Virus record (IMG/VR): IMGVR_UViG_3300046491_000453
Span: 1-27,000 of that record
DNA length: 27,000 nucleotides
Strand: one strand, 5' to 3'
DNA from: a virus
Shown: positions 15,434 through 27,000 of the stretch, piece by piece
Position numbering within the stretch: the stretch's first letter is position 1
How the letters are laid out: each line of letters starts with the position of its first letter
The notes under the pieces: generated by a model
Seen by the model: only the letters and a program-made list of their open reading frames with translations
Told to the model about the DNA's origin: nothing
Database searches by the model: none
Translations under genes and position numbers: made by a program

Positions 15434-17082
15434 TGGGAAAAACGTCATTCACGCCGCAACAGCGCAGCGCGCAGAACGTGCAGATGCCCGCCCCATTCCG
15501 AGGCATCAACACGCTCGATCCCTTGCAGTCCATGGACCCCAGCTACGGCTTAAGCATCCAGAATTTCGTCGCTACTAATCAGGGCTTGGCTGTACGACCT
15601 GGCTATCGCAAATGGGCGACTGGTTTACCGGGAACGGTTACTAGTCTGCTCACGTATCACGGACGTTTCAACGGTGCCAGCAGGTTGTTTGCATGCAGTG
15701 GTAGTGGCATCTACGACGTGACCAGCGGCGGCGTCGTGGGTGCGCCGGTGGTGTCTGGCCTCAGCGCAACGAACAGCTACTGGCAAAGCGTCGTGCAGAC
15801 GTACACGCAGGCATCAGCGAGCATCCTGATTGCAGTTAATGGCGCCGATGCACCGCGCCTGTATGACGGCTCCGTTTGGAAGACATGCACTCAGGTCGCA
15901 AGTCCAGCGGGTGTCGGCCAGTTCGCGGCAGCCGACGCCAATTCCAATCCAGTCAGCATCAGCAATTTCGTCGATGTCTTGCTGCATCAGCAGCGGCTGT
16001 GGTTTGTTGCGAACAATACGACTGTCGGCTACTACTGCGACATCGGTCAAGTCGGCGGGGCATTGCATCCGTTGGACTTCGGCCCATTCTTCCCTAACGG
16101 CGGCAAGTTGCAAAAGCTCGCAACGTGGACGATGGATAGCGGTGGATCGAGTGGCACGCAGGCGATGCTGGTCGGCGTTTCCGACAGGGGCGATGTCGTT
16201 GTTTTCCAAGGCACGAATCCAAGCGATGCAACGGCATGGACGATGATCGGCCAATACAAAATCGGTTCGCCAGTTGGCCGACGTTGCACTACACAGTATG
16301 AAGGCGATTTGCTCATCTTGACTCAAGATGGCTTGAACCCGATGAGCAAATACCTGCAAAGCGCACGCGTCGAAAGCTCATCGGCGCTCACGTACAAAAT
16401 TTCACCGACCATCAGCAATCTGGTTGCTTCGCTTTCCAATACTCCGGGCTTTGAAGCATCGGTGTATCCAGGTGTGAACGTGATGCTGTTGAACATTCCG
16501 CAAAGCCTGCAAGCTAATAATTTCCAGTTCTGCTTCAACACCATCACTCAGGGCTGGACTCAATTTACGGGCTGGCCTGCACAGTGCTACGGCCTATTCA
16601 ACGACGCCTTCTACTTCGGTGGTACGGGCTTCGTAGCACTTGCGTTCATCGGCTATCAGGACGGAGCCGACATCAATGGGGCAGGGGGCAACAACATCAT
16701 CGCCACGGCCATGACCGCGTTCAGCTCCATGGATGCAGCCTTCGGCAGTGGCGTCGTCAAGCACGTCAAGCAGGTCAAGCCGTTTCTGGTCACTGGCAGC
16801 TCAAGTCCGAACGTCTATGTGGGCGTTAACACGGACTTCGATCTGACTCCGATCATTGGCAGTGCGACCGTCAATCCGGCCACAGGTGCAGTCTGGGATA
16901 CCGCTAGATGGGATGACCCAAACACCACATGGGTAGGCAACCTCACTACTGTGAACCGTTGGACGGGTGTCTCGTCGTTCCCAGGTACGTATGTGGCGGT
17001 TACGGTATCCGTCAGTGCGACCGCCGACACTCTTTGGAGCGCGACAGATTTGCTAGTCGCGCCGGGTGGCCCCTTTGCCTAA
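15433..17082 (+). CDS. Tail-nozzle / tail-hub structural protein (gp10-like)
   Basis: The 549-aa product starts at the ATG that overlaps the adaptor stop codon; the frame is open 200 nt further upstream, inside the adaptor gene. It begins with PAPFRGINTLDPLQSMDPSYGLSIQNF and contains many beta-rich blades (SRLFACSGSGIYDV, DVLLHQQRLWFVANNTTVGYY, GDVVVFQGTNPSD, EGDLLILTQDG). This fits the beta-propeller tail-tube or nozzle proteins of short-tailed phages, equivalent in place to P22 gp10. The neighbouring adaptor supports this. It is probably the main short-tail component to which fibres attach. The family assignment is by pattern and position. Confidence 0.65.
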   Translation: MGKTSFTPQQRSAQNVQMPAPFRGINTLDPLQSMDPSYGLSIQNFVATNQGLAVRPGYRKWATGLPGTVTSLLTYHGRFNGASRLFACSGSGIYDVTSGGVVGAPVVSGLSATNSYWQSVVQTYTQASASILIAVNGADAPRLYDGSVWKTCTQVASPAGVGQFAAADANSNPVSISNFVDVLLHQQRLWFVANNTTVGYYCDIGQVGGALHPLDFGPFFPNGGKLQKLATWTMDSGGSSGTQAMLVGVSDRGDVVVFQGTNPSDATAWTMIGQYKIGSPVGRRCTTQYEGDLLILTQDGLNPMSKYLQSARVESSSALTYKISPTISNLVASLSNTPGFEASVYPGVNVMLLNIPQSLQANNFQFCFNTITQGWTQFTGWPAQCYGLFNDAFYFGGTGFVALAFIGYQDGADINGAGGNNIIATAMTAFSSMDAAFGSGVVKHVKQVKPFLVTGSSSPNVYVGVNTDFDLTPIIGSATVNPATGAVWDTARWDDPNTTWVGNLTTVNRWTGVSSFPGTYVAVTVSVSATADTLWSATDLLVAPGGPFA

Positions 17083-26159: not shown

Positions 26160-26356
26160 GCAATGAAGTAATAGCAGCAGTTAAACATACCCTAGACGTT
26201 ATCGCAGCGAGTGTGACCGTGCTTACAATCATCAAGGTCTTACCAGCGATCACGGCTGGTCTTGCGGCAATCTGGTATGTGATGGGGCTGTATGAAAAGA
26301 TTACAGGTCGGGCTTTCAGCGAGTCCCGTTTCGCTCGATTCCTGACCGGCAGGTAA
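26156..26356 (+). CDS. Small membrane protein, second candidate holin/antiholin
   Basis: The 66-aa product has a hydrophobic stretch from about residue 12 to 46 (VIAASVTVLTIIKVLPAITAGLAAIWYVMGLY), enough for one long or two short membrane spans. It ends in a basic tail with SESRFARFLTGR. It is coupled to the preceding candidate holin by a 4-nt overlap. Paired small membrane proteins after the fibre genes are commonly a holin with its inhibitor or partner. The 584-bp gene-free stretch starts directly after its stop codon. Confidence 0.6.
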   Translation: MSNEVIAAVKHTLDVIAASVTVLTIIKVLPAITAGLAAIWYVMGLYEKITGRAFSESRFARFLTGR

Positions 26357-26564
26357 AAGGCAGCTCATGGCTGAATAGGTCGGGGCTTTTTTACGTCTGT
26401 AGATTTTGCATCTGGCCGATCCGTGCCGCATAGGCTCTGGCTTTCCCATCGAGGAAATCGCTCTCCTGTACCACTACACGCGAAATCCCCGATTATCAGG
26501 TATTTCATGCGCTGCTCGCGGCGCGTTCATACTCTCAGTGTTTATCAACCATCTTCTGGGAAAT
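26357..26564. other. Gene-free stretch after the candidate holins
   Basis: No credible gene. A T-run at 26387-26392 follows GGTCGGGGC, but only a weak 5-bp stem with a G-U pair (AGCTC 26362-26366 with GGGCT 26383-26387) can be drawn, so termination here is uncertain. The rest, to about 26564, shows nothing I can interpret. Confidence 0.35.
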
Positions 26565-26570
26565 AGCGTA

Positions 26571-26812
26571 GCGACCTAATCAATTACGGCTTCTGGTGTT
26601 TGATTTTCTTCCAGGTGGCGAGCCGGGACGTAGCGAAGCGAAGTAAGGCCGCTGGAACGAAGTGACTTCTGGGTTTTGAAAAGGAAATTGGCTTCGGCGA
26701 AAGCGACTTCAATGCCAGGTAACTGAGCGGCAGCGAAGTTCGGCATTGAAGTCCCTCGACACCTGGAGCGAAGCGAACAGGTGTTGAGTGTCATTGATTA
26801 CGAAGGAATCGC
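26571..26812 (+). ncRNA. Candidate structured RNA (or ssDNA) element
   Basis: Long-range closing helix: TAATCAAT (26577-26584) with ATTGATTA (26793-26800), extended by CC/GG and GCGA (26571-26574)/TCGC (26809-26812) across two one-sided bulges. Inside it lie CCAG-TGGC (26611-26619, one bulge) with GCCGCTGG (26648-26655), the perfect 12-bp GACTTCAATGCC (26705-26716) with GGCATTGAAGTC (26742-26753), and the 11-bp CTCGACACCTG (26755-26765) with CAGGTGTTGAG (26778-26788, one G-U). No gene overlaps it. The helices were found by eye; whether it acts as RNA or DNA is unknown. Confidence 0.5.
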
Positions 26813-26859
26813 CAAGAATCGCCAAGAATTCTGTTGAGAGAAATAGCTAGTAGCGAAGC
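26633..26859 (+). repeat. Three copies of GCGAAGC
   Basis: GCGAAGC at 26633-26639, 26768-26774 and 26853-26859. The first and third are embedded in the longer GTAGCGAAGCGAARTAAG, and the second forms the loop of the 11-bp hairpin. As single-stranded DNA, GCGAAGC is known to form an unusually stable mini-hairpin. Confidence 0.7.
26808..26827 (+). repeat. Tandem 10-bp repeat
   Basis: ATCGCCAAGA occurs twice head to tail. The TCGC of either copy could pair with GCGA at 26571-26574. Confidence 0.6.
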
Positions 26860-26883
26860 GAAATAAGAATAACGTCGAGGGTG

Positions 26884-26889
26884 TAAATA
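26884..26889 (+). promoter_or_regulatory. TAAATA motif before the last gene
   Basis: GGGTGTAAATAAT, 51 nt before the ATG at 26941. A transcript starting shortly downstream would begin at the start-codon hairpin at 26900-26949. Confidence 0.42.
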
Positions 26890-26899
26890 ATATTGTGTA

Positions 26900-26949
26900 A
26901 ACGGTCATTTGGCAGGAAACTGCCAGCTCAAGGAGAAATGATGACCGTT
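26900..26949 (+). promoter_or_regulatory. Hairpin enclosing the ribosome binding site and start codon
   Basis: AACGGTCAT (26900-26908) pairs perfectly over 9 bp with ATGACCGTT (26941-26949), which includes the start codon. Inside it lies a 6-bp hairpin TGGCAG-GAAA-CTGCCA (26910-26925) with a GNRA tetraloop, followed by the ribosome binding site AAGGAG. It looks like a translational operator. Confidence 0.5.
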
Positions 26950-27000
26950 GTAAAGCGTAATAAGCGGGCCAAGCCCGATCCAGAACTGCTCAAATTGGCC
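26941..27000 (+). CDS. Start of an unrecognised gene, cut by the window end
   Basis: Only 20 codons are visible, beginning MTVVKRNKRAKPDPELLKLA, a basic, hydrophilic N-terminus. The start is well supported by AAGGAG 6 nt upstream. The ATG is predicted to be sequestered in a 9-bp helix with the leader, so expression may be controlled at translation. Family unknown. Confidence 0.6.
   Translation, partial: MTVVKRNKRAKPDPELLKLA

Follow-up and report, generated by a model that had tools for sequence, protein, structure and literature searches.

A start-codon hairpin in an IS256-family element inserted in a phage genome: a likely RNA brake in cis on translation of the transposase

We find that a 27,000-nucleotide stretch of viral DNA (positions 1 to 27,000 of IMG/VR record IMGVR_UViG_3300046491_000453, hereafter the window) ends in the left end of an IS256-family insertion sequence (IS), in the leader of which the transposase start codon can be paired within an RNA hairpin, and it is likely that this hairpin serves as a cis-acting brake on transposase translation. 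In the transposase mRNA, sequence at the inner margin of the left terminal inverted repeat (IRL) would pair with the start codon, and the Shine-Dalgarno (SD) sequence would be enclosed together with a GNRA hairpin. The resulting structure would block 30S binding, and translation of the transposase would stay low on any transcript that carries the left end, including read-through from a neighbouring gene. The start-site hairpin probably keeps transposase scarce in this way; both the effect on translation and the benefit of a low transposase supply are what we infer.

The outer stem of the structure consists of a pair of exact 9-nt complements, the second of which (ATGACCGTT) begins with the start codon, with 32 nt separating the two arms (Table 1). 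The initial 5 nt of the 5' arm are shared with the inner end of the IRL and the remaining 4 lie outside it, while the inner hairpin is composed of TGGCAG (26910-26915), a GAAA loop (26916-26919) and CTGCCA (26920-26925). Folding of the 64 nt at 26897-26960 yields -22.7 kcal/mol, compared to a mean of -11.6 for shuffled sequences (z = -4.56; none of 200 shuffles match), with the z-score shrinking as the folded segment is widened (-2.92 at 101 nt, -1.67 at 121 nt). The preliminary description of this locus had reported the exact 9-bp complement over the start codon, as well as the inner GNRA hairpin and a ribosome binding site within the enclosed segment, and these observations are borne out by our analysis. 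In-frame ATGs exist at both 26938 and 26941, of which the latter is better placed relative to the SD and serves as the start in homologues.

Table 1 Features of the IS256-family left end in the window
Feature	Position	Strand	Basis
Left terminal inverted repeat (IRL), IS256-family, GAGGGTGTAAATAATATTGTGTAAACGG	26877..26904	+	Identity to the Massilia element; inverted right ends of relatives; break in the phage alignment
-10-like box TAATAT in IRL (speculative)	26888..26893	+	By eye only; the consensus scan gave no plus-strand promoter
5' arm of outer stem, AACGGTCAT	26900..26908	+	Complementarity, folding, covariation in relatives
Inner hairpin TGGCAG-GAAA-CTGCCA with GNRA loop	26910..26925	+	Folding; relatives
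Shine-Dalgarno sequence AAGGAG, within outer stem	26930..26935	+	Sequence; kept in relatives
3' arm of outer stem, transposase codons 1-3 (ATG ACC GTT)	26941..26949	+	Complementarity, folding, covariation
5' end of IS256-family transposase gene (MTVVKRNKRAKPDPELLKLA...), cut at the window end	26941..27000	+	20/20 residues identical to Massilia putida transposase

Among the 989 ATGs tested in the window, one further site (approximately 16316-16342) is preceded within 60 nt by its exact 9-nt complement, against an expectation of 0.2, and chance is ruled out for the hairpin at the transposase start mainly because its pairing is conserved in related elements. The further site (16316-16342; ATGAGCAAA / TTTGCTCAT, with a 25-nt loop) lies within an ORF and probably arose by chance. 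A covariance-model search of the leader against Rfam returned no match, even at E = 1. An intrinsic terminator or attenuator was also considered and rejected, as no site of the hairpin plus U-run type is present in 26340-27000. A promoter consensus scan detected no plus-strand promoter at the leader, and none between the arms; on the minus strand a weak promoter-like match exists at 26915-26887, which is at chance level (1 found, 0.5 expected).

The identity of the element was exposed by a tblastn search of plasmids with the 20 visible residues of the downstream gene, which form the N-terminus of an IS256-family transposase from a plasmid of Massilia putida. The full-length homologue in M. putida matches the Pfam family Transposase_mut (PF00872; E = 1e-124) and is a Mutator-type DDE transposase; the window holds 20 transposase codons, and the catalytic part of this copy and the right end of the element lie beyond it. 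At the nucleotide level, 26876-27000 is 91% identical to the M. putida element, and copies on Pseudomonas plasmids reach 82% identity across a somewhat shorter span. Characteristic of the IS256 family are inverted repeats of about 25-30 bp at the ends and a short duplication of the target site. The IRL matches that of relatives having both ends, as well as their right end when inverted, the window stopping before the right end of its own element. Related phages align with the window up to 26876, where similarity ends, and none of them contains the downstream gene. Given the IS256-family identity and this break in the phage alignment, the hairpin belongs to the IS and not to the phage. On sequence grounds, 26877-27000 is the left end of an IS256-family element inserted between genes of a podovirus-like phage, the contig of which encodes terminase, portal, capsid and tail proteins. 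The possibility that the downstream gene has a homologue among phages was rejected, since DNA patterns in viral contigs were unmatched and phage relatives carry other DNA at this position. The closest elements to the window IS are from Oxalobacteraceae (Massilia and Pseudoduganella, with 95-97% transposase identity among them), and this kinship suggests that the host of the phage belongs to the Oxalobacteraceae.

Leaders for comparison were gathered from 80 bacterial-genome loci, plasmid copies and loci from approximately 1100 genomes, resulting in 153 usable sequences, 57 of which are non-redundant. Pairing is kept despite sequence change in related elements with transposases that are 44-100% identical, and almost all of these relatives possess a differently spelled hairpin over the same start site, with weak pairing in a few (leaders L106, L116, L186 and L129). 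The close group of 39 leaders retains the pairing seen in the window, and 6 pairs have changed on both sides, compared to 1.7 in shuffled data (0 of 500 shuffles). Examples are AAATGGTCAT opposite ATGACCA in Nitrosomonas, AACGTCATTTT opposite AAAATGACG in Methylotenera and its relatives, and AGTCATTTT opposite AAAATGACT in a genome of the Methylococcaceae. The inner hairpin is paired in 97% of cells among relatives and displays compensatory changes, with variants that keep the pairing including GGTAG-GAAA-CTACC, GACAG-GAAA-CTGTC and CCGGC-GCAA-GCCGG, and some relatives possess different inner stems with GCAA or GAGA loops. Moreover, the second transposase codon is ACC, ACG or ACT (all of which encode threonine), and the choice among them tracks the opposite strand.

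The register of the pairing also varies over phylogeny. In a clade of 8 of the 53 transposases on our tree (support 100/97), with members from Xanthomonas, Comamonas, Hydrogenophaga, Herbaspirillum and others, the partner of the 5' arm is the SD region and not the start codon, and a GTGT-ACAC pairing just before the ATG extends the stem. For the 13 leaders of this group, 10 cells of the outer stem have changed on both sides, compared to 3.5 when shuffled (0 of 500), a count limited to the outer stem as the MAFFT alignment misregisters the inner hairpin. More distant relatives (44-63% transposase identity) possess unrelated arm sequences that again cover either the start codon (e.g. GCTCATTTT with AAAATGAGC) or the SD (e.g. 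TGTCAATCC with GGATTGAC). The same leader design is found in ISRm3, ISAba26 and IS256 itself, where GTGTAAAAGT forms a duplex over the start codon with ACTTTTACAT. Spacing between GTGT and the ATG ranges from 38 to 57 nt among elements.

A fold over a start region is in itself weak evidence, given how many ordinary genes fold alike: a loose MFE occlusion criterion picks out 11 of the 19 ordinary phage genes in the window, for which reason occlusion counts were dropped as a test, and equally strong local duplexes occur at some of these genes. The claim is instead carried by tests in which arms are swapped between elements. Across the 57 non-redundant leaders, own arms pair with a mean of -13.98 kcal/mol, compared to -9.26 for swapped arms, and the lowest value among 5000 permutations is -10.64 (0/5000). 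The same outcome (0/5000) is obtained for near (29) and far (28) leaders separately, and in each of ten random draws limited by relatedness, in which all transposases had to share less than 75% identity (20-23 elements) or less than 65% (10 elements). A set of 17 deep lineages chosen by hand gave the same swap result, and the random draws took its place to avoid selection. The 3' arm also pairs better with the inner sequence of the left end than with that of the right end of the same element (-13.99 versus -9.68; n = 52, Wilcoxon p = 3e-7), and consequently the terminal repeat alone does not account for the arm. A leader structure over the SD or start codon that is maintained by selection is therefore well supported by these comparisons of sequence. 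The preliminary description had proposed covariation between the leader and the first codons as a check, and had regarded loss of pairing in relatives as evidence against a regulatory role. Arm-specific coevolution is indeed found, in relatives of the IS, and these keep the pairing, whereas related phages are without the structure.

Several alternative hypotheses may account for a hairpin in this location. In IS10/Tn10 and IS50, the left-end inverted repeat covers the transposase start on read-through mRNA, and the native mRNA lacks the 5' arm. The window element resembles these systems in that left-end repeat RNA lies over the transposase start, and it is possible, if on balance doubtful, that it likewise provides protection from outside transcripts only, with native mRNA from an internal promoter lacking the 5' arm and being translated, and read-through mRNA folding and remaining silent. 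The 5' arm is at the edge of the element, which is the right place to sense outside transcripts, and stops in all three frames precede it in the IRL, such that incoming ribosomes would halt short of the hairpin and could be kept from opening it. However, three-frame stops exist in just 20 of the 57 leaders, and were accordingly rejected as a feature of the family. Furthermore, what lies between the arms is a conserved, GC-rich hairpin without a promoter match, and TAATAT, the most -10-like sequence, is located upstream of the 5' arm; because of these two observations, the native mRNA of the window element probably begins at or before the 5' arm and so also carries the hairpin, unlike that of IS10 and IS50. 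Alternatively, the sequence may function as DNA, as a subterminal palindrome that is bound by transposase or forms a cruciform in transposition, its overlap with the start codon being incidental. We regard this as decidedly unlikely: the outer arm overlaps the terminal repeat, and sense pairing is not significantly better than antisense pairing (p = 0.10), yet the 3' arm follows the start codon or SD in nearly all elements despite varied spacing, an equivalent arm is absent at the right end, and pairing is kept while sequences vary widely. From the position of the 3' arm, we infer that the sense RNA is the selected molecule.

A third potential function is as a landing site for an antisense RNA that sets transposase levels, which would be the chief role of the hairpin. 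In enterococci, an antisense RNA over the start region of IS256 lowers transposase (PMC10266640), and the weak minus-strand match noted above could be taken to point in the same direction, but that match is within chance expectation, and we consider an antisense target improbable as the main explanation. The two elements are alike in belonging to the same IS family and in having a start codon paired with its own leader; they differ in that the control published for enterococcal IS256 is the antisense RNA, the passages located in that account not describing the hairpin. Interplay of the hairpin with antisense RNA in IS256 is possible. By far the least credible alternative is the one advanced in the preliminary description, namely a translational operator in which the hairpin is bound by a phage protein that represses its own or another gene. 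The general appearance of the locus, with a start codon in a stem and a stable capped hairpin, is indeed reminiscent of phage coat-protein operators, where the start region also lies in a stable hairpin, and the suggestion of translational control through RNA structure over the start is upheld by the coevolution of arms in relatives. However, the gene is an IS transposase and not a phage gene, the IS elements of many bacteria and plasmids have the structure while related phages do not, and the arm sequences vary freely, without a constant sequence across the family for a protein to recognise. Nothing among our tests points to a repressor protein.

The brake on translation that we favour has parallels in other IS families. 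In IS200, an inverted repeat in the tnpA leader hides the translation initiation signals, with the ribosome binding site sequestered in a stem-loop, according to a secondary account (PMC12594629). The leader described here similarly covers initiation signals, but the transposases are unrelated, and in the window element the edge of the terminal inverted repeat contributes to the outer arm, with the start codon itself paired in the stem. In ISPpu9, of the IS110 family, the structured 5'-UTR of tnp likely includes the ribosome binding site and lowers translation, and mutations that weaken the structure raise expression (PMC8450116). Unlike the window element, ISPpu9 has no clear terminal inverted repeats, and its leader is opened by an antisense RNA, Asr9. 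A limited literature search revealed no earlier account of a start-site lock for the IS256 family, and the coevolving lock is, as far as the searchable literature shows, new.

Elements of the IS256 family are among the most widespread bacterial ISs, and they help to spread drug resistance and rearrange genomes, yet the means by which they hold transposase low have been described only partly. A leader structure that coevolves among elements whose transposases share less than 50% identity would represent a general brake for the family, and would explain the joint evolution of N-terminal codons and terminal repeats. It is conceivable, although we would not expect it, that throughout the IS256 family the left-repeat edge is a fast re-spelled RNA lock that switches between start-codon and SD registers, and that a trans factor (antisense RNA, Hfq or the transposase) opens or reinforces it. 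If this were true, an RNA switch would set transposition across one of the commonest IS families. For the window itself, the IS256 identification corrects the reading as a phage operator.

Several further observations concern the surrounding phage genome. Immediately before the IS, and after presumed lysis genes, a noncoding block of approximately 290 bases (26588-26876) is 79-86% conserved in related phages (L004 11908-12193, L006 15514-15799, L008 15533-15753 and L002 14445-14670). It is rich in AGCGAAGCGAA-like repeats and is predicted to be highly structured, with 82 consensus pairs and little covariation, and could be a phage noncoding RNA. A segment of 76 bases to the left of this block (26426-26501) is 96% identical to L004 12986-13061; in relatives it lies approximately 1 kb to the right of the block, just upstream of a gene encoding 214 amino acids, and we interpret it as a rearranged or repeated regulatory segment. 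Genes at 568-1629 of the window correspond to L009 15575-16580 and L010 15718-16488, relatives at the 72% level in which they are inverted and located to the right of the tail genes. Finally, an apparent sensor histidine kinase, recognised by eye only and unusual for a phage, is encoded on the minus strand beyond the tail genes in L004 (15350-16507), L006 (18956-20113) and L008 (19616-20746).
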